Shown: one piece after another, positions 6,554 to 16,171 of the stretch
Position numbering within the stretch: the first letter of the stretch is position 1
Layout of the letters: each line of letters starts with the position of its first letter
Origin: Clostridiales bacterium
GTDB taxonomy: Bacteria > Bacillota > Clostridia > Christensenellales > Borkfalkiaceae
Assembly: GCA_015055735.1 (NCBI GenBank)
Contig: SVHP01000018.1
Span: 1 to 32,377, forward strand
Direction: 5' to 3'
Length of the DNA: 32,377 nt
The notes under the pieces: generated by a model
Told to the model about the DNA's origin: nothing
What the model saw: the letters and a program-made list of their open reading frames with translations, nothing else
Databases searched by the model: none
Program-made: the position numbers and the translations under genes

Positions 6554-7348
6554 ATGGAAATAATAGATGCGCACGCACACATATATCCATATAAAATAGC
6601 GCAAAAAGCAACGCAAGCAATAGGCAATTTTTACGATATTCATATGCAGTTAACAGAAGGGACGACGGATATTCTCTTAGAACAAGGTAGTAAGGCTGGT
6701 ATAACAAAATACGTAGTTCATTCTTGTGCAACTAAAGCTGAACAAGTTCGCTCGATAAACGAGTTTGTAAAAAGCGAGTTGGATAAACACGATAACTTTA
6801 TTGGGTTTATGACTTTGCACCAAGATTTAACAGAAGAGCAAATTTACGATGAAGTTTGTTGGGGGGTAAAAAACGGTTTCAAAGGTATAAAATTGCATCC
6901 TGATTTTCAAAAGTTTTATATTGACGGACAAGATGCAAAAAAGTTTTATAGGGTAGTTGGAGATAAAATGCCAATTTTGTTCCATACGGGTGACGATAGA
7001 TATGAATATTCTAAACCACGTCGTTTGGCAAACATGGCAAAAGAGTTTAAAAATGTTAACTTTATAGGTGCGCATTTTGGTGGATATAGATGTTGGGATG
7101 ACGTAGAGGTGTATAAAGGGCTAGATAACGTATTTTTCGATACGTGCTCGTCGCTTATGTTTATAGACGATGTTAAAGCTAAGAGCATTATTGATTTACT
7201 TGGTAGCGAAAAGTTCTTTTTTGGAACTGATTTTCCTATGTGGGGTGCGACAAGCGAATTAGCTAGGTTTAATAAGGTCAAATTGACTGAAAAAGAAAGG
7301 GAAAATATTCTGGCAAAAAATATAAAAAATTTGTTAAAAATTAAATAA
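6554..7348 (+). CDS. Amidohydrolase family (Amidohydro_2/TIM-barrel) metal hydrolase
   Basis: A 264-residue TIM-barrel hydrolase. The N-terminal metal motif DAHAH is at residues 5-9. GIKLHPDF, ILFHTGDD, IGAHFGG and FFGTDFPMW follow in the order expected for the Amidohydro_2 family, with the final Asp in GTDFP. Members hydrolyse or decarboxylate varied small cyclic or acyl substrates, so the substrate cannot be named. AGGAAG lies 7 bases before the start. It stands alone between its own promoter and the first T-box promoter; no clear terminator was seen after it. Confidence 0.85.
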   Translation: MEIIDAHAHIYPYKIAQKATQAIGNFYDIHMQLTEGTTDILLEQGSKAGITKYVVHSCATKAEQVRSINEFVKSELDKHDNFIGFMTLHQDLTEEQIYDEVCWGVKNGFKGIKLHPDFQKFYIDGQDAKKFYRVVGDKMPILFHTGDDRYEYSKPRRLANMAKEFKNVNFIGAHFGGYRCWDDVEVYKGLDNVFFDTCSSLMFIDDVKAKSIIDLLGSEKFFFGTDFPMWGATSELARFNKVKLTEKERENILAKNIKNLLKIK

Positions 7349-7354
7349 AAATAC

Positions 7355-7383
7355 TTGACAAATAAATTTGTGAAGAGTAAAAT
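7355..7383 (+). promoter_or_regulatory. Promoter P1 of the T-box operon
   Basis: TTGACA (7355-7360), a 17-base spacer and TAAAAT (7378-7383). The expected transcription start near 7390 is just ahead of the first T-box stem I. Confidence 0.75.
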
Positions 7384-7389
7384 ATTACA

Positions 7390-7633
7390 AAAATAAATGA
7401 AATATAAACGCAATGAAGGAAACAGACGATTTGTTTTGATATAGAGAGTTGACGGTTGGTGCAAGTCAACGAGAGATTTATCGTTACTCATTCCTGAGCG
7501 GAAACGGCGAAATTAAGTAATCGTTTACGGATGCTTCGTTAAGGCAAAAGAGTGGTTGTTTTGAGCAATAATTCGGGTGGTACCGCGGTAATTTATCGTC
7601 CCTAACTGTTTAGTTAGGGATTTTGTATTTTTT
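7390..7633 (+). ncRNA. T-box leader 1, full stem I, specifier CTC (Leu)
   Basis: A tRNA-sensing transcription attenuator. The T-box sequence GGGTGGTACCGCGG (7575-7588) is followed by a terminator hairpin (arms 7599-7607 and 7612-7620, then T's). Stem I is built from CGC/GCG, AGGAA (7417-7421)/TTCCT (7491-7495) and ACGAT (7426-7430)/ATCGT (7480-7484). The AGAGAG element (7443-7448) and the distal GGTTGGTGCAA loop are present. The specifier loop 3' side is TACTCA (7485-7490). Aligned with leader 2, where the codon sits directly before an A and the lower stem, the specifier is CTC (7487-7489), leucine. TAC remains a less likely reading. Uncharged tRNA would stabilise the antiterminator and let transcription pass. 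Confidence 0.93.
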
Positions 7634-7907
7634 AAGGATAAATGCAAAAATATATCTCGCTAATACCTATTTACTTGACATCACTTTTGTTTTTATATAT
7701 AATGTTATATATAATTTACTTACAATAGCATTTTATGCGCAAAGGCGGAGACGAATAACCTTGCATGTTTAATAAATATTGTAAAAATGCATAAGTTATC
7801 GTATCACTTTAGAACGTAGATGATGAACGAAAATAGTTGTTTACGGATGACTTCGTTAAGGTCAAAGAGTGGTTGCTTTTAGCAACAATTCGGGTGGTAC
7901 CGCGGTA
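7523..7907 (+). repeat. Direct repeat of the T-box antiterminator region
   Basis: The two copies at 7523-7590 and 7839-7907 share stem III and the T-box bulge with only a few differences and one single-base insertion. The stem I regions are not similar in this way. Confidence 0.8.
7675..7703 (+). promoter_or_regulatory. Promoter P2, between the two T-boxes
   Basis: A consensus promoter: TTGACA (7675-7680), 17 bases, TATAAT (7698-7703). It lies after the first T-box terminator and before the second T-box, so leader 2 can be transcribed independently of leader 1. Confidence 0.85.
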
Positions 7908-7942
7908 TTAAATCGTCCCTGACTTTTGTCGGGGATTTTTTT
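7710..7942 (+). ncRNA. T-box leader 2, short stem I, specifier ATC (Ile)
   Basis: T-box sequence GGGTGGTACCGCGG (7892-7905) and a terminator (TCCCTGAC 7916-7923, GTCGGGGA 7928-7935, T run to 7942). Stem I contains ACGA-A-TAAC (7751-7759) paired with GTTATCGT (7795-7802) and AAAG (7741-7744) with CTTT (7807-7810). The specifier loop 3' side is ATCA (7803-7806), so the codon is ATC, isoleucine. The upper stem is a simple TGCAT/ATGCA hairpin; the AGAGAG and GGTTGGTGCAA distal elements of leader 1 are absent. Its 3' part (7839-7907) is nearly identical to 7523-7590, indicating descent from a duplicated unit. Confidence 0.92.
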
Positions 7943-7976
7943 ATTTAAAGTAAGTAATTTGTATTGGAGGTAGATT

Positions 7977-9350
7977 ATGAAGAAAATTTGTATTTCGGAC
8001 GTTACGTTAAAGGCTATCGACGAACAAGGTTTTTCGTTGACTTTTAGAGAGAAGCTTGCTATTGCAGAAAAACTGGATAGCTTATTAGTGGATTATATTG
8101 AATTACCTACTTTAGCAAATTCAAAGGAAACGGAAATTATTTACCGTACTATTTCTTCATCGTTAAAAAATGCAACTGTAAAGATTCCTGTTGGGGATAG
8201 TGAACAAGGTATAGATTTTGCAGTTAAATGTGTAAAAAAGGCAAAGAAGGTTTGCTTGCAAGTGATTTTACCTGTTTCAACTACGTTGATGGAATATTTT
8301 TATCACTTAAAAGCGCCTATGATGCTAGAAAAAATTGCAAATTTAGTATCTCTTGCTAAGGCAAAATGCGATTTGGTAGAGTTCGTTGCACTTGACGCGT
8401 TTAGGGCAGAAGATGGTTTTGTTGAAACTTGCGCTAAAATTGCGTTTGAAAACGGAGCAAGTATAATTACTATTTGCGATAGCGAAGGTGTGGCTTTACC
8501 AGAAGATTATCCTAACTTAATTAAAAAGATTAAGGACTCATGTGATATTAGCGTACACGTACAACCATCAAACAATCTTTCGATGGCATCAGCGTGCGCA
8601 GTTCAATCTATTAAAGCTGGAGCTGACGGGGTTAAGGCTGCGATAAGTGGCAACTATTTAGACCTTGCAGTTTTTGCCGAAATTATTCGTGCAAAAAGAT
8701 TTAATCTAGATATGGAAACCAAGTTGGATATTACTAATACAAAAACTGTTTCTATTGACGTGTGCGACGTGTTGAAAGGTCAAGTACAAACTGTTGAACA
8801 AACGGTTAATATGGGCTTTGTTGATAATAACTGCACGATTAAAGATATTGCCGAAATAGTTAAGCAATTAGGTTATGAAATTTCCGATTCTGATATCGGC
8901 AAGGTTTTTGAAGAATTTAAGAAAATTACTGCTAAAAAGGAAAGGATTGATACAAAGGAATTGGAAGCGTTAGTTGCAAGCGTTGCAATGCAAGTGCCTT
9001 CTACTTATCACTTGATTAACTACGTTGTTAACAGTGGTAATATTATTCCTGCTACAGCAAACGTTACTTTAGAAAAAGACGGCGAAAAGTTTACAGGTGT
9101 TTCGACTGGTGACGGTCCTATCGACGCTGCTTTTCATGCAATCGAACAAGTCGTTGGTCATCATTATGAACTAGACGATTTTCAAGTTCATGCTGTTACT
9201 AAAGGTAGAGGGGCTGTTGGATCTTCTATAATTAGACTTCGTGCAAATGGGAAGTTGTATCCAGGAAACGGCGTTTCAACCGATATCGTCGGCGCATGTA
9301 TTCGCGCATATATCAATGCGTTGAACAAGATAGTTTACGAGGATAAGTGA
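7977..9350 (+). CDS. LeuA-like protein with degenerate catalytic site and intact leucine-regulatory domain
   Basis: A 457-residue relative of 2-isopropylmalate synthase. The HMGL-like TIM barrel spans about residues 1-240, a linker follows, and the LeuA dimer/regulatory domain covers about 345-457. The regulatory domain is well kept: STGDGPIDAAFHAIEQVV, VTKGRGAVGSS and GNGVSTDIVGA align with the leucine-binding part of true LeuA. The barrel is not: the DTTLRDGEQ motif reads D8-VTLKAIDEQ, the HxHNDLG metal motif reads H194-V-Q196-PSNN, the GERAGN loop shrinks to SGNYLD, and no HxSGIH segment is found. It is therefore unlikely to make isopropylmalate. A leucine-sensing pseudoenzyme or a changed reaction are both possible. 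A strong GGAGG precedes ATG 7977; this is the first gene after both T-boxes. Confidence 0.8.
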   Translation: MKKICISDVTLKAIDEQGFSLTFREKLAIAEKLDSLLVDYIELPTLANSKETEIIYRTISSSLKNATVKIPVGDSEQGIDFAVKCVKKAKKVCLQVILPVSTTLMEYFYHLKAPMMLEKIANLVSLAKAKCDLVEFVALDAFRAEDGFVETCAKIAFENGASIITICDSEGVALPEDYPNLIKKIKDSCDISVHVQPSNNLSMASACAVQSIKAGADGVKAAISGNYLDLAVFAEIIRAKRFNLDMETKLDITNTKTVSIDVCDVLKGQVQTVEQTVNMGFVDNNCTIKDIAEIVKQLGYEISDSDIGKVFEEFKKITAKKERIDTKELEALVASVAMQVPSTYHLINYVVNSGNIIPATANVTLEKDGEKFTGVSTGDGPIDAAFHAIEQVVGHHYELDDFQVHAVTKGRGAVGSSIIRLRANGKLYPGNGVSTDIVGACIRAYINALNKIVYEDK

Positions 9351-9351
9351 T

Positions 9352-11805
9352 ATGAAGTTCTCTTTTCCGGATAAATTCGTCAATGCCAATAGCTTTATTG
9401 AGCTTTGCAATATTGCTCAAGACTACGGCTTTGACGGTATAGAAATTTTTGATGCAAAACAAGAAAAAGAAAGTCATATCGACAGTATTTTTCATACTTC
9501 GATAACGACTGATGCAAAGCGTAAATTGGTAAATAGACACATTTCTATTCCAGTTATATGCTATCCTGAAAAAATAAACGAAAATACCGATAGTGAAGAT
9601 ATAATTAAGTACGTTGAATACGCTTCTATTGCAGGTGTTTCGGGTGTAATTATTAAGTTTGAAAAGTTGTTAAGTACAAAAAAACTTAAAGAACTTTTGC
9701 TATCAGTCATTAAGTATGCTGAAGATTGCAACGTTGATATCTTGATAGAAACTTGCGACGCTTTGGTTAAAACAGAAAAGGTTTTAGAAACCATAAACGT
9801 ATTTGCTTCAGCACGTCTTAGAGTTTGTTGGAATATTCGTGAAACTTTCTTTACGACCAACGAAAGCGCAGACAGTATTATCCAAGCCTTGGGCGCATAT
9901 ATCACTTACGTAAGAATAGGCGATAGAAAAGATGGGGTGAATACTCTTATCGGTGAAGGCGAGCTTCCTGTTCAAGATTTTATGAACGCTCTTCGTTCTT
10001 TAAATTACGACGGGTATATCTCGATTATGGATTCGGGAGAAATAACTAATTCGGATATCTTGCTTACTCATTTTAAGAGTTATATGTCGGCAAAATCTAA
10101 CGTTAAGGAAGAAACGCCTATTTATTATAACCGTTCAAAAACGGGTACGCATCCTTGGAAAAAGTATGACGTTTTGGATTTGACTTTCTCTGAAGTTTTA
10201 GACCAAATGGTTAAGAGTTATCCCGACCAATACGCATTTAAGTATACAACGCTAGATTATACTAGAACTTATTCTGAGTTTAGAGATGACGTAGATAAGG
10301 TAGCGGCGGCTTTGATTTCTTTGGGGGTTGAACCTGGACATCACGTGGCTATTTGGGCAACAAATATTCCACAATGGTTTTTGACCTTTTGGGCAACTGT
10401 AAAGATAGGAGCAGTTTTAGTTACCGTCAATACTGCTTATAAAATTCACGAAGCAGAATATCTTTTGAAACAATCGGATACTCATACTTTGGTTATGATC
10501 GATAGTTGTAAGGATTCTAATTATAAGGAAACTATTGAAGAACTTTGTCCTGAATTAAAAAAGATAAAGCCAGGTCAACCATTGTATTCTAAAAAACTAC
10601 CGTTTTTACGCAACGTTATAACGGTTGGATTTGATATGGACGGTTGCTTAGAATGGAAGGATTTCTTTAAGCGCCACGTCCTAGTGCCTAATGAAGAAGT
10701 TAGAAGAAGAGCGTCTAACGTTAAGAGCGACGATGTGTGCAATATGCAATATACTTCGGGAACAACGGGCTTTCCAAAGGGCGTAATGTTAACGCATAGG
10801 AATATAGTTAACAACGGTAAGATTATCGGCGATAGAATGGATACTTCAACTGCTGATAGAATGATGATTCAAGTACCAATGTTCCACTGCTTTGGAATGG
10901 TGCTTTCAATGACTAACATTATGACTCACGGTGGAACTTTGTGTCCTATACCGTACTTTTCACCAAAGTCTTCACTCGCATGTATAAACGACGAAAAGAT
11001 CACTTGCTTTAACGGCGTTCCGACAATGTTTATCGCAATGTTTAACCACGCTGACTTTGCAAAGACTGATTTTTCATATATTAGAACGGGTATTATGGCA
11101 GGCGCTAACTGTCCACCTGATTTGATGCGTAGGGCGGCAAAAGAAATGAATATGACCGAAATAATAAGCGTTTACGGTCAAACCGAAGCATCTCCTGGTT
11201 GCACGATGGGTGAAGTAAACGAAGATTTGGATCATCGTGTTGAAACTGTAGGTAGCGCATTCCCAGGTGTTGAATGTAAGATTATAAATCCTGAAACAGG
11301 TGAAGAAGTAGCAGTCGGTGAAAACGGTGAATTCGTTGCTCGTGGCTATAATATTATGAAAGGCTATTACAAAATGCCAAAAGCAACCGAGCAAACTATC
11401 GATAAAGAAGGCTGGTTACACAGTGGTGACATTTGTTGTAAAACTGCAGACGGATATTATAAAGTTACGGGTAGATTAAAGGATATGATTATTCGTGGTG
11501 GCGAAAACTTGTATCCTAGAGAAATTGAAGAATTTTACTTGACTAATGAAAAGGTAAAAGACGTTCAAGTCGTAGGCGTACCTGACAGTCGTTACGGTGA
11601 GGAAGCTTGTGCGTATGTAATTTTGAAAAATGGAGTTAGTAGCGACGAAAACGAAATGCGTGAATATGGAAATAGCCATATGGCAAAACATAAGGTGCCT
11701 AGATATTTCGTGTTCGTAAACGAATTCCCTATGAACGCAGCCGGTAAAATATTGAAGTATAAAATGCGTGAAGACGCAATAGAAAAAATAAAAAATATGA
11801 AATAA
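9352..11805 (+). CDS. Fusion: TIM-barrel (sugar isomerase-like) domain plus AMP-forming acyl-CoA synthetase
   Basis: An 817-residue two-domain protein. Residues 1 to about 245 resemble the AP-endonuclease-2/sugar phosphate isomerase TIM barrel (YGFDGIEIFDA near the start, DILIETCD, YVRIGDRKDG, GEGELPVQDF), though several usual metal ligands look changed. From about 265 it is a complete acyl-adenylate ligase: P-loop YTSGTTGFPKG (467-477), YGQTE (608-612), WLHSGD (688-693), GRLKDMIIRGGEN (707-719) and the catalytic Lys799 in AAGKILK. It would activate a carboxylic acid to acyl-CoA with ATP and CoA. Operon context suggests a branched short-chain acid such as isovalerate, isobutyrate or 2-methylbutyrate; this is inference. 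The start follows the previous stop by one base, with GAGG upstream. Confidence 0.85.
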   Translation: MKFSFPDKFVNANSFIELCNIAQDYGFDGIEIFDAKQEKESHIDSIFHTSITTDAKRKLVNRHISIPVICYPEKINENTDSEDIIKYVEYASIAGVSGVIIKFEKLLSTKKLKELLLSVIKYAEDCNVDILIETCDALVKTEKVLETINVFASARLRVCWNIRETFFTTNESADSIIQALGAYITYVRIGDRKDGVNTLIGEGELPVQDFMNALRSLNYDGYISIMDSGEITNSDILLTHFKSYMSAKSNVKEETPIYYNRSKTGTHPWKKYDVLDLTFSEVLDQMVKSYPDQYAFKYTTLDYTRTYSEFRDDVDKVAAALISLGVEPGHHVAIWATNIPQWFLTFWATVKIGAVLVTVNTAYKIHEAEYLLKQSDTHTLVMIDSCKDSNYKETIEELCPELKKIKPGQPLYSKKLPFLRNVITVGFDMDGCLEWKDFFKRHVLVPNEEVRRRASNVKSDDVCNMQYTSGTTGFPKGVMLTHRNIVNNGKIIGDRMDTSTADRMMIQVPMFHCFGMVLSMTNIMTHGGTLCPIPYFSPKSSLACINDEKITCFNGVPTMFIAMFNHADFAKTDFSYIRTGIMAGANCPPDLMRRAAKEMNMTEIISVYGQTEASPGCTMGEVNEDLDHRVETVGSAFPGVECKIINPETGEEVAVGENGEFVARGYNIMKGYYKMPKATEQTIDKEGWLHSGDICCKTADGYYKVTGRLKDMIIRGGENLYPREIEEFYLTNEKVKDVQVVGVPDSRYGEEACAYVILKNGVSSDENEMREYGNSHMAKHKVPRYFVFVNEFPMNAAGKILKYKMREDAIEKIKNMK

Positions 11806-11822
11806 CCCGAAGAGGTGACGTT

Positions 11823-12890
11823 ATGCAAGAAATTAAAATTGAAAAAGCAAAAGTATTAAAAGAAAAACCAGATTTTTCTAAACTTGGTTTTGGTAAGTAT
11901 TTTACCGACCATATGTTCGTTATGGAGTATTCTGACACTGAAGGTTGGAAAAATGCAAGGATTGTTCCATTTGATTATATTCCAATCCATCCAGCATCTA
12001 CCGTTCTTCATTACGGTGCTGAAATATTCGAAGGTATGAAAGCGTATAAGACTTTCGATGGATATCAAATGTTTAGACCACTTGAAAATATTAGAAGAAT
12101 GAACGATTCCGCTGAAAGACTTTGTCTTCCTGCACTTCCTGAAGAATTCACGCTAAAAGCTTTGACCGAACTAATCAATTTGGATTACGAATGGATTCCA
12201 GACAAGGAAGGAACTTCTTTATATATTCGTCCATTTATGTTTGGTAACGACGAGTCTTTGGGTGTTCACGCCGTTCATAACGCAACTTTCGTTATTATTT
12301 TATCGCCTGTTGGTGCGTACTATGCAGAAGGTCTTAACCCTGTAAAAATCAGTATCGAAAGCGAGGACGTTAGAGCCGTTCGTGGTGGAACGGGTTACGC
12401 TAAATGCGGTGGTAATTACGCTGCTAGTATGAGAGCAGGCAAAAGAGCTGCTGCAAAAGGTTTTTCTCAAGTTTTATGGCTTGACGGTGTTGAAAGAAAA
12501 TACATTGAAGAAGTTGGCGCAATGAACGTTATGTTTAAGATTAACGGCGAAATTATTACGCCTATGCTAACGGGTTCAGTTCTACCTGGTATAACAAGAA
12601 AGTCTTGTATTGAAATTTTAAGAGAATGGGGATACAAGGTAAGCGAAAGATTGATTTCAGTTGACGAATTGATTGACGCTGCTAAAAACGGTACTCTCGA
12701 AGAAGCGTGGGGTACGGGAACGGCTGCCGTTATTTCGCCTATAGGACATTTGGTTTATAAAGACGTTGACTACGTTGTTGCTGGCGATAAAATCGGCGAA
12801 CTTGCTCAAAGATTGTACGATGAATTAACAGGTATTCAATGGGGTAAGAATCCTGATAAGCGTGATTGGTGTTATAAGGTAAAAATTTAA
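11823..12890 (+). CDS. ilvE: Branched-chain amino acid aminotransferase
   Basis: A 355-residue class IV PLP aminotransferase. HYGAEIFEGMKAY, RPLENIRRM and SLYIRPFMFG are typical of the longer bacterial BCAT branch, and the PLP-binding lysine is Lys194 in GTGYAKCGGNYAAS. LPGITRKS and EEAWGTGTAA complete the active site. It interconverts Leu, Ile and Val with their 2-oxo acids using glutamate/2-oxoglutarate. It follows the synthetase by 17 bases with an AGAGGTGA ribosome site. In this operon it would provide the last step of amino acid synthesis, or the first step of breakdown if the flux runs the other way. Confidence 0.95.
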   Translation: MQEIKIEKAKVLKEKPDFSKLGFGKYFTDHMFVMEYSDTEGWKNARIVPFDYIPIHPASTVLHYGAEIFEGMKAYKTFDGYQMFRPLENIRRMNDSAERLCLPALPEEFTLKALTELINLDYEWIPDKEGTSLYIRPFMFGNDESLGVHAVHNATFVIILSPVGAYYAEGLNPVKISIESEDVRAVRGGTGYAKCGGNYAASMRAGKRAAAKGFSQVLWLDGVERKYIEEVGAMNVMFKINGEIITPMLTGSVLPGITRKSCIEILREWGYKVSERLISVDELIDAAKNGTLEEAWGTGTAAVISPIGHLVYKDVDYVVAGDKIGELAQRLYDELTGIQWGKNPDKRDWCYKVKI

Positions 12891-13558
12891 TGTTTGATAA
12901 AAGAGTTACCATTTTTTTAGGACATTACGGAAGTGGAAAAACTTTTATATCGGTAAATTACGCCATTGCTCTTGCAAAAATGAACAAGGCTGTAAGCATT
13001 TACGATTTAGATATAGTTAATCCGTATTTTAGAACGATTGACGCTAAAAATATGCTAGATAAAAACAACGTGGAATTAGTTGTTTCACCGTATGCGGAAA
13101 CTAACGTTGATTTACCTGCATTAAATGCTAAGGCGTATAAAATGCTAGACGACTTATCTCGTTATGCAGTAGCTGATATAGGTGGCGACGATAGGGGCGC
13201 TTTGGCTCTCGGTCGTTTTTATGAAAAAATTAAAGCTGAAGATAATTACGATGCGCTCTTTGTCCTTAATAATTGTCGCCCTGAAACGAGAGATATAGAA
13301 GGCGCTATCCAAATAATGAAAGAAATTGAGTGGACGGCAAAACTTAAGTTTACGGGTATTGTAAATAATGCAAACCTTGGAAACGAAACTACCGAACAAA
13401 CGATTTTACGTGGCGTAGATTTTACTAACGAGTTATCAAAAATCACTGGTCTACCCGTTAAGTTTACTGCCGTTAGGCGTGACTTAATAGGTGGTCAACT
13501 AATGAAAATAAAAGAAATATTGCCGATTGACCCTATAAAATACGGGGATTGGCTATAA
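12890..13558 (+). CDS. MinD/CobQ-like P-loop ATPase linked to the oxidoreductase operon
   Basis: A 222-residue SIMIBI-class P-loop protein: Walker A GHYGSGKT (11-18), switch-like segment YDLDIVNPYF (38-47) and Walker B VADIGGDD (94-101). VLNNCRPETRD and GIVNNANLG are typical nucleotide-contact regions. There are no CxxC cluster ligands, so it is not a plain Mrp/NBP35 Fe-S carrier. The start overlaps the ilvE stop by one base (TAATG), so the two are translationally coupled, and the ferredoxin subunit gene starts 11 bases after it. Its function is unknown. Position suggests a role in assembly, activation or control of the oxidoreductase. Confidence 0.8.
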   Translation: MFDKRVTIFLGHYGSGKTFISVNYAIALAKMNKAVSIYDLDIVNPYFRTIDAKNMLDKNNVELVVSPYAETNVDLPALNAKAYKMLDDLSRYAVADIGGDDRGALALGRFYEKIKAEDNYDALFVLNNCRPETRDIEGAIQIMKEIEWTAKLKFTGIVNNANLGNETTEQTILRGVDFTNELSKITGLPVKFTAVRRDLIGGQLMKIKEILPIDPIKYGDWL

Positions 13559-13568
13559 AGGAGAAAAT

Positions 13569-13775
13569 ATGGCAAAAGTAAGTTTTGACGAAGAGTTGTG
13601 TAAAGGTTGTGGACTTTGCGAATTAGCTTGTCCAAAGCAAATTATAATTCTTTCAAAAGAAAAAATTAATGCAAAAGGTTATCATCCAGCGCAAGTAATC
13701 GAACAAGAAAAGTGCATAGGCTGTGCGTTCTGCGCAACTATGTGTCCTGATTCGGTTATTAGGGTTGAAAAGTAG
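13569..13775 (+). CDS. vorD: Ferredoxin-type subunit (delta) of 2-oxoacid:ferredoxin oxidoreductase
   Basis: A 68-residue protein with two classical [4Fe-4S] motifs: Cys11, 14, 17 and 21 followed by Pro, and Cys49, 52, 55 and 59 followed by Pro. It carries electrons between the catalytic site and external ferredoxin. AAAGGAGA lies 6 bases ahead of the start. Subunits B, A and C follow directly, the usual order for the four-subunit VOR/KOR type. Confidence 0.92.
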   Translation: MAKVSFDEELCKGCGLCELACPKQIIILSKEKINAKGYHPAQVIEQEKCIGCAFCATMCPDSVIRVEK

Positions 13776-13784
13776 AGGTGTAAT

Positions 13785-14855
13785 ATGGCAGAAAAAGTAT
13801 TGATGAAAGGTAATGAAGCATTAGCAGAAGCAGCGATAATGGCTGGATGTAGATATTATTTTGGATACCCAATTACTCCACAAACAGAAGTTGCTGCATA
13901 CATGAGTAAACGTATGCCAAAGATCGGTGGAACGTTCTTACAAGCAGAATCTGAAGTTGCCGCAATAAATATGGTTATAGGCGTTTCGGCTTGTGGTAAA
14001 AGGGTTATGACAAGTAGTAGTAGCCCTGGAATTTCATTAAAGAGTGAAGGTATTTCATATCTTGCAGGTTGTGACCTACCTGCTCTTATAATCAACGTAC
14101 AACGTGGTGGTCCTGGTCTTGGTGGTATTCAACCATCTCAATCGGACTATTTCCAAGCGCTTAAAGGTGGTGGACACGGTGATTATAAACTTATAGTTTT
14201 AGCGCCTGCATCTATTCAAGAAATGGTTGATTTAACTTTCAAAGGTTTTGACCTTGCAGACAAGTATAGAATGCAAACCATGATCCTTGCAGACGGTACT
14301 ATGGGTCAAATGATGGAGCCTGTTAGCTTAGAACTTGGACAAGTTAAAGAATACGATAAGCCATGGGCAACGACGGGTACAGGTACTCATGAAGGTAGAA
14401 ACGTAGTAAATTCACTATCGTTAAGCCCTGCTCAACTAGAAGAATGGAATATTTCAAGATATGAAAGATACAAAATAGTCGAACGTGACGAAGTTATGTA
14501 CGAAGAATTCATGATGGACGATGCTGAAATTTGCGTAGTTGCGTTTGGTATTGCTGCGCGTGTTTCTAAAAATGCCGTAATGGAAGCAAGGGCAAAGGGA
14601 ATGAAGGTTGGTATGATTAGACCTATTACATTATGGCCTTTCCCAAAAGATGCATTAAAGAATGCAAGCAAAAAAGTAAAATCTTTCCTATCAGTTGAAC
14701 TTAATATGGGACAAATGGTTGATGACGTAAAACTTGCAATCGATTGTGAAAAACCTGTATATTTCTATGGTAGAACAGGTGGTATCATTATGACACCAAA
14801 CGAAGTTTTAAATAAACTTATTGAAATTGAAAAAGGAGAGGCAAAAGCATGGTAG
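13785..14855 (+). CDS. vorB: 2-oxoacid:ferredoxin oxidoreductase subunit alpha (VorB type)
   Basis: A 356-residue alpha subunit of the VOR/KOR family. The start (LMKGNEALAEAAIMAGCRYY), GYPITPQTEV, LQAESEVAAINMVIGVSACG, TSSSSPGISLKSEGISY and QRGGPGLGGIQPSQSDY are hallmarks of the 3-methyl-2-oxobutanoate dehydrogenase branch. The enzyme oxidatively decarboxylates branched 2-oxo acids to acyl-CoA with ferredoxin, and the reaction is reversible when reduced ferredoxin is available. The assignment to branched substrates rests on family resemblance and on ilvE in the same operon; 2-oxoglutarate specificity cannot be excluded. The stop overlaps the next start by 7 bases. Confidence 0.92.
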   Translation: MAEKVLMKGNEALAEAAIMAGCRYYFGYPITPQTEVAAYMSKRMPKIGGTFLQAESEVAAINMVIGVSACGKRVMTSSSSPGISLKSEGISYLAGCDLPALIINVQRGGPGLGGIQPSQSDYFQALKGGGHGDYKLIVLAPASIQEMVDLTFKGFDLADKYRMQTMILADGTMGQMMEPVSLELGQVKEYDKPWATTGTGTHEGRNVVNSLSLSPAQLEEWNISRYERYKIVERDEVMYEEFMMDDAEICVVAFGIAARVSKNAVMEARAKGMKVGMIRPITLWPFPKDALKNASKKVKSFLSVELNMGQMVDDVKLAIDCEKPVYFYGRTGGIIMTPNEVLNKLIEIEKGEAKAW

Positions 14856-15595
14856 TATTTGAAAAAACCAAAGGTTTAACCGATAATCCACTTCATTATT
14901 GCCCAGGTTGTACACACGGAATTATTCACCGTCTAGTTGCTGAAGCATTAGAAGAATTAGGGGTAACAAATAGAACTATTGGTATTGCATCAGTAGGATG
15001 TTCAGTATTCTCATATAATTATTTTAACTGCGATATGATACAAGCAGCGCACGGTAGAGCTCCAGCAGTTGCTACGGGCGCAAAAAGGGCAAATCCAAAC
15101 AATATAGTATTTACTTATCAAGGCGATGGTGACCTTGCTGCTATCGGTACTGCTGAAACGGTACATTCGGCTGCAAGAAATGAAAATATAACTATAATTT
15201 TCGTTAACAACGCTATTTATGGTATGACTGGTGGTCAAATGGCTCCAACAACTCTTCCAAATCAAGTTACGCAAACTTCGCCATATGGTAGAGACGTTAC
15301 CGTTGTTGGTTATCCTATTAAAGTTTGTGAAATGCTTTCACAAGTTGACGGTGCATCTTATTTAGAAAGAGTTGCCGTTAATAACGTAAAGAATATTAAA
15401 AAGGCAAAACAAGCAATTTTACACGCTTTCAAAAACCAAATTGAAGGCAAAGGTTTCTCGTTGATAGAAGTTCTATCTACTTGCCCAACAAACTGGGGTG
15501 TGTCTCCAAAAGATGCGCTTAAATGGCTAGAAGAAAATATGGAAAAACACTATCCATTAGGAGTATTCAAAGACAAGTATAAGGAGGAAAAGTAG
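14849..15595 (+). CDS. vorA: 2-oxoacid:ferredoxin oxidoreductase subunit beta (TPP-binding)
   Basis: A 248-residue TPP-binding subunit. CPGCTHGIIHRL, then GCSVFSYNYFNCD and HGRAPAVATGAKRANP, the GDGDLAAIGTAE magnesium/TPP motif and NNAIYGMTGGQMAPTT are in the standard order. It holds the thiamine diphosphate where the 2-oxo acid is cleaved or formed. The AAAAAGGAGAGG ribosome site lies inside the end of vorB, and the coding regions overlap by 7 bases, indicating coupled translation. Confidence 0.93.
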   Translation: MVVFEKTKGLTDNPLHYCPGCTHGIIHRLVAEALEELGVTNRTIGIASVGCSVFSYNYFNCDMIQAAHGRAPAVATGAKRANPNNIVFTYQGDGDLAAIGTAETVHSAARNENITIIFVNNAIYGMTGGQMAPTTLPNQVTQTSPYGRDVTVVGYPIKVCEMLSQVDGASYLERVAVNNVKNIKKAKQAILHAFKNQIEGKGFSLIEVLSTCPTNWGVSPKDALKWLEENMEKHYPLGVFKDKYKEEK

Positions 15596-15596
15596 T

Positions 15597-16127
15597 ATGA
15601 CGAGTAAAATCCTTATTGCAGGTTTTGGTGGACAAGGTATTCTTTTTGCTGGTAAAGCACTTGCTTTTACAGGCTTAAAAGCCGACAAGGAAGTAAGTTG
15701 GCTTCCTTCATACGGTCCTGAAATGCGTGGTGGTACAGCAAATTGTAGCGTTACTATAAGCGACGAACCTATCGGATCTCCAATCGTTGATAAACCTGAT
15801 ATTTTAGTTGCTATGAACTTGCCTTCGTTAGAAAAGTACTTAAATGAAACGGAAAAGAACGGTTATATTATATTTGACAGTTCGCTAATTAGTAAAGAAG
15901 TTGTTAGAGAAGACGTTTCTATAGTAGGTATTCCTGCAACTAAATTAGCAACTGATAACGGACTAGATGGATTAGCAAACATGATTATTATGGGCAAAGT
16001 TATAAGAGAAACTAGCGTATTAACTTTGGATCAAATCAAAAATAGTCTATCTCAAATGGTCCCAGCTAAAAAAGCAGAATTACTAGAAAAGAATATTAAA
16101 GCGATTGAATTAGGTTTTAATTATTAA
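15597..16127 (+). CDS. vorC: 2-oxoacid:ferredoxin oxidoreductase subunit gamma
   Basis: A 176-residue gamma subunit: ILIAGFGGQGILFAGKALA at the N-terminus, the WLPSYGPEMRGGTANC motif and VDKPDILVAMN. This domain helps bind CoA. It starts one base after the beta stop, with AAGGAGG upstream, and ends the eight-gene operon; a terminator follows. Confidence 0.93.
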   Translation: MTSKILIAGFGGQGILFAGKALAFTGLKADKEVSWLPSYGPEMRGGTANCSVTISDEPIGSPIVDKPDILVAMNLPSLEKYLNETEKNGYIIFDSSLISKEVVREDVSIVGIPATKLATDNGLDGLANMIIMGKVIRETSVLTLDQIKNSLSQMVPAKKAELLEKNIKAIELGFNY

Positions 16128-16143
16128 TATTTAGAAAAATTAG

Positions 16144-16171
16144 AAAGGTAGCAAGAAATTGCTGCCTTTTT
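16144..16171 (+). terminator. Terminator of the T-box/vor operon
   Basis: AAAGGTAGCAA (16144-16154) and TTGCTGCCTTT (16159-16169) pair with one wobble around GAAA, and continue into T's. Confidence 0.85.

Follow-up and report, generated by a model that had tools for sequence, protein, structure and literature searches.

The window is the whole 32,377-nucleotide stretch that was analysed, from a contig of an uncultured, gut-type Clostridiales bacterium (Borkfalkiaceae). It was found that one operon on its forward strand encodes, in this order, a LeuA-like protein, a fusion of a TIM barrel and a CoA ligase, an aminotransferase, a P-loop ATPase, a ferredoxin, VorA, VorB, and VorG. Two T-boxes lie upstream of the operon, a full one with a Leu codon (CUC) followed by a degraded one that apparently reads Ile. 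All the genes named in the original prediction, which had placed a CoA ligase, an oxidoreductase, and a branched-chain aminotransferase (BCAT) in one operon, were found in their place. The ferredoxin gene (13569-13775), between the P-loop gene and VorA, had been missing from it. Where two bit scores are separated by a slash, the second is the cut-off.

6554..7348, + strand: Amidohydro_2 family protein (PF04909), a frequent neighbour that may or may not belong to the operon
7404..7606, + strand: T-box leader 1, specifier CUC (Leu), with antiterminator and terminator (Rfam RF00230, 116.5 bits)
7772..7923, + strand: T-box leader 2, shortened stem I, triplet AUC (Ile) by eye (RF00230, 73.2 bits)
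7977..9350, + strand: LeuA-like protein, 457 aa, degenerate isopropylmalate-synthase TIM barrel and LeuA regulatory (leucine-binding) domain (PF00682, PF08502)
9352..11805, + strand: fusion ligase, 817 aa, proposed isovaleryl-CoA synthetase (PF01261, PF00501, PF13193)
11823..12890, + strand: branched-chain aminotransferase, IlvE type II (NF009897 464/307, TIGR01123 378/250 bits)
12890..13558, + strand: MinD/CbiA-like P-loop ATPase, 222 aa (PF01656 29.6/25.4)
13569..13775, + strand: 2x[4Fe-4S] ferredoxin, 68 aa, Vor delta subunit (PF12838 56.2/27)
13785..14855, + strand: 2-oxoacid:ferredoxin oxidoreductase alpha, VorB-type in NCBI naming (NF005507 544/399; PF01855, PF17147)
14849..15595, + strand: 2-oxoacid:ferredoxin oxidoreductase beta, TPP (PF02775)
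15597..16127, + strand: 2-oxoacid:ferredoxin oxidoreductase gamma (PF01558 133.5/27.4)

The BCAT exceeds two NCBIfam equivalog cut-offs (464 versus 307 and 378 versus 250 bits). The Vor subunit set is complete at the locus, with alpha, beta, gamma, and ferredoxin all encoded, while only alpha exceeds a Vor-specific cut-off (the NCBIfam VorB model, 544 versus 399 bits). Gamma falls just under that of TIGR02175 (75.6 versus 81.1 bits), and a profile search of the beta protein gave no NCBIfam model above cut-off. Of 80 loci from relatives, only 25 have Vor genes within the DNA that was retrieved, many contigs being short. Since the P-loop ATPase gene stands immediately upstream of the ferredoxin and VorA genes in all 22 loci holding VorA, it is apparently part of the Vor module. 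The Amidohydro_2 gene is also present in 33 of the 80 relatives' loci and in most loci of the genus.

T-box leaders and their codons

Specifier calls rest on reading by eye and on a pattern, a triplet followed after 6 bases by GAG or AAG, rather than on a fitted model. T-box 1 is firmly of the leucine type; it scores above the Rfam gathering threshold (116.5 versus 93 bits) and its specifier is CUC. Among 67 leaders of the same operon from other species, 55 have CTC at one and the same spacing, and none of the other spacings tested gives more than 2. Thus, the Leu codon is not due to chance. By the specifier pattern, 17 of the 80 relatives' leaders have no T-box. The second T-box, which the original prediction had called isoleucine-type beside the leucine one, fared less well. 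It has an antiterminator motif but scores under the gathering threshold (73.2 versus 93 bits, E 8.5e-15), its stem I is shortened, its AUC triplet was read by eye, and the fold of 7735-7850 is unremarkable (z -1.09). Eight of nine near-relative leaders inspected by eye have a second T-box without a normal stem I, while the ninth (L035) has a full second T-box with AUC. Thus, the isoleucine type is plausible but weaker.

A LeuA-like protein and three codon-addressed ligases

The LeuA-like protein has the PF08502 regulatory domain (108.8 versus 24.9 bits) and lies far under the NCBIfam LeuA cut-offs (best 249.8 versus 532 bits). I take the metal ligands of LeuA to be an Asp and a His-x-His motif. 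Both metal-binding histidines are lost in 53 of 53 members of the LeuA-like family, and the complete Asp/His/His set is present in none of them; two loci (L203 and L209) were left out of this comparison as wrong open reading frames. In canonical LeuA, both histidines are present in 9 of 9 sequences and the Asp in 7, the remaining two being short gene calls. The most conserved part of the LeuA-like protein is the leucine-sensing domain, with a mean pairwise identity of 64.2% versus 40.7% for the barrel. Canonical LeuA (n=9) is the opposite, with 40.5% for the regulatory domain and 56.7% for the barrel. Because the metal histidines are lost and the leucine-sensing domain is best conserved, the protein is probably a dead enzyme turned leucine sensor. 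It is less likely that it is instead an enzyme of a new activity, a reading that the retained TIM barrel and some invariant residues would favour but that the missing metal set and the reversed conservation of the two domains argue against. The presence of a LeuA-like protein had been correctly foreseen, whereas a working isopropylmalate synthase is very unlikely and was set aside on the lost residues. Its gene adjoins the fusion ligase gene in 74 of the 80 loci; in the other 6 the contigs end.

The fusion ligase consists of a xylose-isomerase-like TIM barrel (about residues 1-255) and an AMP-forming acyl-CoA ligase (about 263-817). Among solved structures, feruloyl- and fatty-acyl-CoA ligases are closest to it. 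It passes none of the best 25 NCBIfam models listed, and it is under the cut-off of its best match, the fatty acid CoA ligase model PRK12583 (667 versus 832 bits). Elsewhere in the host genome, two further CoA ligases were found, each with a T-box, one Ile and one Val (87.5 and 85.7 bits, below the Rfam gathering threshold of 93; E about 1e-19). Both are HTH-cupin-CoA-ligase fusions. Their nearest solved relative is 3ETC (E 1.4e-190 and 3.8e-183), the Macs enzyme of Methanosarcina acetivorans, which prefers 2-methylbutyrate (PMC10455477). Their best NCBIfam match is MbcS, although they are under its equivalog cut-off (446 and 443 versus 850 bits). MbcS of Staphylococcus aureus activates 2-methylbutyrate and isobutyrate, while isovalerate is a poor substrate (PMC10026030). 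As MbcS hardly uses isovalerate, leucine should need another ligase, that of the operon. By the Leu T-box codon and by exclusion, isovalerate, and with it leucine, is the most likely assignment for the fusion ligase.

Do codon and paralog match beyond the host? In a tree of 69 HTH-cupin ligases, the 30 with an Ile leader and the 23 with a Val leader lie on opposite sides of one branch (SH-aLRT 99). Any ATC among the candidate triplets of a ligase gave it the label Ile, and any GTA the label Val; other triplets were often listed too, and 16 of the 69 were left unlabelled. One residue follows the Ile/Val split of the tree in 69 of 69 ligases (Gly in 40, Ala in 29). It lies in a GW[G/A]K motif and may be an acyl-pocket residue, the equivalent of Val310 in acetyl-CoA synthetase, although searches on this point had no result. 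Several relatives carry HTH-cupin ligases within the operon itself, and some of these ligases have an Ile or Val T-box of their own. The stretch upstream of one ligase (L200 of genome G043) has no T-box by the specifier pattern. A third type of ligase with an Ile T-box occurs in two genomes and was left off the tree.

Standard branched-chain amino acid genes in the host and its relatives

The original prediction had suggested a survey of the genome for ilv and leu genes and a search of related genomes for the same gene order and T-boxes, and both turned out in its favour. In the host genome (76% complete), family searches gave no match for ilvB, ilvC, or ilvD, and for leuB only a 30-bit match, with none over the cut-off. 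No leuC-sized protein was found, the family search giving one 728-aa aconitase-type protein, and the search for LeuA returned the LeuA-like protein only. Only 9 of 14 control genomes had a leuB match above the cut-off, and in 7 members of the genus there is a leuB-family match below it (257-273 bits). Both ilvC and ilvD are present in 2 of 37 genomes of the genus; the other 35 are without both. The gene order and the T-boxes recur in many relatives. Gene content thus suggests that the host no longer has the usual route to leucine, isoleucine, and valine.

In a draw of genomes from the order, ilvC is present in 1 of 32 fused-ligase genomes (G088) versus 44 of 119 others (Fisher p 5.9e-5, kinship ignored). 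Fused and unfused ligases were told apart by hand from the length of the open frame (817 aa and more versus 552-619). Where the homologous ligase is unfused, 12 of 34 genomes have ilvC. The gene is also absent from 53 of 85 genomes without the ligase, so that its loss alone does not imply the route proposed here. Likewise, ilvC is present in 1 of 33 genomes with an HTH-cupin ligase versus 10 of 28 without (p 0.0016; 61 genomes, hand-classed). Two members of the genus (G002 and G024) have ilvB, ilvC, and ilvD yet keep the Leu-codon operon, the codon of G002 having been read by eye. Their listed ligases include no full-length HTH-cupin fusion of the Ile or Val type, but there is a third, split MbcS-like one after VorG, which has Leu where the others have Gly or Ala. 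The kept operon and the retained ligase weaken the notion of a clean swap of pathways in these two genomes.

Proposed pathway and known systems

Very probably, the operon holds the leucine arm and the common core of a pathway that stands in for the usual synthesis of branched-chain amino acids. The order of steps in the original prediction, from acid to acyl-CoA, 2-oxo acid, and amino acid, is well supported by the missing ilv and leu genes and the recurring operon. I infer the following substrates and directions. The fusion ligase would convert isovalerate to isovaleryl-CoA, VorABG with ferredoxin would add CO2 reductively to give 2-oxoisocaproate, and the BCAT would aminate this to leucine. 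The same Vor and BCAT would also serve isoleucine and valine, whose precursors, 2-methylbutyrate and isobutyrate, would be activated by the two HTH-cupin-CoA-ligase fusions at the other loci. Through the T-boxes, each ligase would be switched on when the tRNA of its amino acid is uncharged. The leucine-binding domain of the LeuA-like protein probably lets leucine feed back on the fusion ligase, with which it is constantly paired. More tentatively, in the whole lineage three codon-addressed T-box ligases and a shared reductive-carboxylation core might replace de novo synthesis of these amino acids, with the dead LeuA sensor regulating the isovaleryl-CoA ligase by direct contact in place of classical feedback inhibition; this broader picture may well not hold in full.

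Vor and BCAT are reversible, and oxidative use of Vor is the better-known direction in peptide fermenters. The operon might thus oxidise branched-chain amino acids to acyl-CoA with a yield of reduced ferredoxin, the ligase running backwards or recycling acids. However, T-boxes turn genes on at low charged tRNA, and here the codons match ligase by ligase. The ligases are AMP-forming, which is the ATP-costing direction, no phosphotransacylase or acid kinase was named in the family searches of the operon proteins, and the biosynthetic pathway was not found in the host genome. Fermentation was set aside on the T-box logic and is quite improbable. The chance is slighter still that, like MbcS of S. 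aureus, the ligases provide branched acyl-CoA to prime the synthesis of iso/anteiso membrane lipids. In favour of lipid priming, MbcS and Macs are the nearest relatives of the HTH-cupin ligases, and MbcS serves lipid synthesis (PMC10026030). However, control by Leu/Ile/Val T-boxes fits amino acids rather than lipids, as does the linkage to Vor and BCAT, seen in the window and in some of the relatives. Lipid priming as the sole role was set aside on these grounds, while a dual use of the ligases for lipids and amino acids is possible.

The locus offers candidate genes for each step and would make the trait readable from genomes. It would mark bacteria needing branched acids from their neighbours, which bears on feed additives and syntrophy. 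The codon-to-ligase match would allow substrate specificity to be predicted from RNA, and these LeuA-like genes, with their weak matches to LeuA models, should not be taken as a sign of leucine synthesis.

For some six decades, gut anaerobes have been known to turn branched volatile fatty acids into amino acids. That isovalerate, 2-methylbutyrate, and isobutyrate give Leu, Ile, and Val is known rumen physiology (PMC7356843), and the same article cites Allison and colleagues (1962-1971) for the carboxylation route in rumen bacteria. A passage of a 2020 paper states that the step from branched acids to amino acids "was not proven yet" and is only theoretically possible via ferredoxin oxidoreductase (PMC7709123). 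A gene-level account of the route, or a codon-addressed gene system, was not found in searches of an open-licence library. The chemistry is that of 1960s rumen physiology. The net conversions proposed here are the same, and many of the bacteria are from herbivore guts (a habitat count without a background for comparison); what is added is an assignment of genes, T-box control, and paralog ligases. Macs and MbcS are the nearest characterised relatives of the HTH-cupin ligases, with 2-methylbutyrate (and isobutyrate for MbcS) as substrates, but here the ligase is fused to HTH and cupin domains and split into Ile- and Val-addressed paralogs, and MbcS feeds lipids, unlike the proposed amino acid role. 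The LeuA-like protein shares the two-domain family of LeuA (2-isopropylmalate synthase) and has strongly kept its regulatory domain, but it has lost the catalytic and metal residues, its linker is about 30 residues shorter, and its partner is a CoA ligase. The oxidoreductase resembles Vor (2-ketoisovalerate ferredoxin oxidoreductase) in its alpha, beta, gamma, and ferredoxin subunits and differs by the accompanying P-loop ATPase and the leucine T-box control.

The operon and its constant gene pair

As listed below, two T-box leaders precede a row of genes including a LeuA-like protein (a degenerate homologue of isopropylmalate synthase), a fusion of a TIM barrel with a CoA ligase (the fusion ligase), a branched-chain aminotransferase (BCAT), and a 2-oxoacid:ferredoxin oxidoreductase (Vor).

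Features of the operon (position, strand, description)
7404-7606, +, T-box 1, specifier CUC (Leu)
7772-7923, +, T-box 2, shortened copy, specifier AUC (Ile) read by eye; 73.2 bits against an Rfam threshold of 93 bits
7977-9350, +, LeuA-like protein
9352-11805, +, fusion of a xylose-isomerase-like TIM barrel and an AMP-forming CoA ligase, 817 aa
11823-12890, +, branched-chain aminotransferase, type II
12890-13558, +, small P-loop ATPase
13569-13775, +, 2x[4Fe-4S] ferredoxin
13785-16127, +, Vor-type 2-oxoacid:ferredoxin oxidoreductase alpha, beta and gamma

Since the genes overlap or stand less than 20 bases apart, they are likely to form a single transcription unit. The original prediction assigned leucine- and isoleucine-type T-boxes to this operon. 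The CUC specifier of T-box 1 bears out the former, while the latter is less firm, T-box 2 being shortened and below the threshold with an AUC read by eye. The stem I of T-box 2 looks decayed by eye in eight of nine near relatives; the ninth (locus L035) has the full AUC form. At least one T-box scored above the Rfam gathering threshold in all eight relatives' loci scanned with Rfam.

A search of the genomes of 84,980 species with a LeuA-like profile pattern yielded at least 594 matching stretches and at least 589 confirmed relatives, possibly including ordinary LeuA, and the loci of the best 80 of these relatives were compared. It was found that the LeuA-like gene is followed by the fusion ligase gene in 74 of the 80, the contig ending in the remaining 6. 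The pair is the constant unit of the locus. Vor genes lie within the fetched DNA of 25 of these best 80 loci. In all 22 loci holding VorA, the P-loop ATPase and ferredoxin genes precede it. Elsewhere the pair is found without Vor, in some cases in loci of 21 kb. T-boxes recur among the same best 80: an antiterminator lies within 1500 bases upstream in 63 loci (2 of the other 17 offer at most 300 upstream bases), and CTC is among the candidate triplets in 53 of the 63, any other triplet being found in at most 6. Of 67 leaders, 55 have CTC 6 bases ahead of the closing GAG/AAG, whereas each other spacing from 2 to 10 occurs in at most 2. The records of these best 80 comprise 77 Clostridia (24 Oscillospiraceae, 11 Lachnospiraceae, and the rest mostly without a family), 1 Bacillota, and 2 Spirochaetales. 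The titles of 57 name a ruminant, a horse, or a RUG/RUI-type isolate, which I assume to denote a rumen project; this count has no background rate for comparison. An Amidohydro_2 family protein, encoded at 6554-7348 in the window, is present in 33 of the best 80 loci.

In an alignment of 53 distinct LeuA-like proteins with 9 canonical LeuA proteins of the same order, both metal-binding histidines are missing from all 53, none of which has the complete Asp/His/His set; they also have a linker some 30 residues shorter than that of canonical LeuA. Among the LeuA-like proteins, the regulatory domains share a mean pairwise identity of 64.2% and the barrels one of 40.7%, the opposite of canonical LeuA (40.5% and 56.7%, respectively). 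It follows that the leucine-sensing domain is the part under the strongest selection. The simplest role of the LeuA-like protein would be leucine feedback on the fusion ligase, because the latter is its constant partner and the leader is a leucine T-box. The fused TIM barrel has also lost, in the clade of the window, what I take to be the usual metal-ligand motifs, which are kept by separate homologues in three other families. Three loci (L054, L055, and L056) have an unfused TIM-barrel gene beside a homologous unfused ligase gene, with no LeuA-like gene seen at the locus. The association of the barrel with the ligase may predate the fusion.

Ligases addressed by isoleucine and valine T-boxes

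The host genome has six T-box matches, two of them above the Rfam threshold and two of the six in the operon. One precedes a tryptophan-synthase beta-like gene (locus L060, contig C17) with the specifier UGG (Trp), and another precedes thrS with ACC (Thr), both genes being identified by eye; the agreement of leader and gene supports the procedure of specifier reading. The remaining two leaders lie on contigs C47 (87.5 bits, AUC for Ile) and C4 (85.7 bits, GUA for Val), ahead of HTH-cupin-CoA-ligase fusions of 755 and 768 aa, respectively, the domain make-up having been established on relatives. The idea that branched-chain amino acids are built from branched acids is supported and reaches beyond the window.

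Among 69 such ligases including both host copies, 30 have an Ile leader, 23 have a Val leader, 16 have an unreadable one, and none has both. A single branch parts all Ile from all Val rows (quick IQ-TREE, SH-aLRT 99), and clustering as tight as observed for each label appeared in none of 500 shuffles. By the criterion of at least 90% within each group and no overlap, a single column of the ligase domain tells the two types apart, with Gly in 30/30 Ile-type and Ala in 23/23 Val-type ligases. The 16 unread ligases each match their own clade there, giving 40 Gly and 29 Ala in all. In 20 further upstream stretches, GTA was found in 17/17 of the Val type (two from genes already counted) and ATC in both of a third type, while in that of the G043 ligase no T-box was recognized by pattern. 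This third type (L198 on G031:C70 and L199 on G028:C18) is 61-62% identical to the Ile type and has an Ile T-box.

In several relatives, the operon itself contains both ligases, positioned after the fusion ligase gene and before the BCAT or P-loop gene; in the two loci inspected closely (L170 of G048 and L172 of G032), each retains its own T-box. In loci L044-L050, VorG is followed by a split pair, an HTH-cupin protein (~190 aa) and an MbcS-like ligase (~564 aa) whose residue at the Gly/Ala position is Leu; the pair perhaps serves a third substrate and perhaps represents the pre-fusion form. Downstream of the Ile-type ligase on host contig C47 (L069, 3930-6740), a 479-aa ACT and metallo-beta-lactamase-like protein, a MaoC-like protein, and a short-chain dehydrogenase were recognized by eye.

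The standard pathway in the host, genus, and order

It was proposed that an incomplete standard pathway would support salvage. The host genome, a 76% complete assembly of 1.52 Mb in 67 contigs, has no match for ilvB, ilvC, or ilvD, the only protein matched in the aconitase-family search is aconitase-sized (728 aa) rather than leuC-sized, and the search for canonical LeuA gave only the LeuA-like protein of the window. The ilvB, ilvC, ilvD, and aconitase searches each matched in 14/14 control genomes. The result for leuB, whose best host match has merely 30 bits in a 409-aa frame, is weaker because the 14/14 control matches exceeded the cut-off in only 9 and seven genus members have matches of 257-273 bits, below the cut-off. 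In the genus, 2 of 37 genomes have ilvC and ilvD, and the same 2 have ilvB above the cut-off; below it, ilvB has a strong match in G031 and weak ones in four others.

In a sample of 151 genomes of the order, with genomes missing from the search output scored as no match, ilvC was found in 1 of 32 genomes with the fused ligase versus 44 of 119 others (Fisher p = 5.9e-5, kinship uncorrected). Against a simple reading, ilvC is also absent from 53 of 85 genomes without such a ligase and is present in 12 of 34 genomes whose homologous ligase is unfused.

The putative route and known systems

From the observed genes, RNA leaders, and distribution, I infer substrates, a reaction direction, and leucine feedback as follows. 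When charged tRNA-Leu is low, transcription would read through T-box 1, the fusion ligase would produce isovaleryl-CoA, Vor would convert it with reduced ferredoxin and CO2 into 2-oxoisocaproate, and BCAT would yield leucine. Low charged tRNA-Ile or tRNA-Val would turn on the corresponding HTH-cupin ligase, supplying the same Vor and BCAT.

For both HTH-cupin ligases, the closest relative with a solved structure is 3ETC (E 1.4e-190 and 3.8e-183), a Methanosarcina enzyme described as preferring 2-methylbutyrate (PMC10455477), and their best NCBIfam model is MbcS, with a score below its cut-off. MbcS is reported to be active on 2-methylbutyrate and isobutyrate and poor on isovalerate (PMC10026030). 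These substrates agree with Ile and Val, the amino acids addressing the two host ligases, and the poor use of isovalerate would account for leucine requiring a ligase of a different family. Isovalerate as the substrate of the fusion ligase is suggested by the T-box and by exclusion, its sequence alone being insufficient.

Host locus L066 (contig C11, ~9308-9838) has a POR-gamma gene above the cut-off that by eye belongs to an IorA-IorB pair followed by a phenylacetate-CoA-ligase-like gene; it is possibly an aryl-acid counterpart (Phe/Tyr/Trp from aryl acids). None of the RF00230 matches of the host genome lies on this contig.

The conversion of isovalerate, isobutyrate, and 2-methylbutyrate into Leu, Val, and Ile by rumen bacteria is classical (PMC7356843, citing Allison and others), and a review of rumen methanogens mentions the use of branched acids for isoleucine and leucine synthesis (PMC10658910). 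Another paper calls the conversion of branched acids into branched amino acids "not proven yet" and theoretically possible via ferredoxin oxidoreductase (PMC7709123). A survey of T-boxes (PMC2494555) never uses the terms ferredoxin, oxidoreductase, CoA ligase, and acyl-CoA in its main text, and the open-licence literature searched, which excludes subscription papers and preprints, yielded no description of either T-box-controlled acid ligases or a genetic system behind this route. The chemistry is known, and the genetic form, dead LeuA homologues excepted, is new as far as this search reaches.
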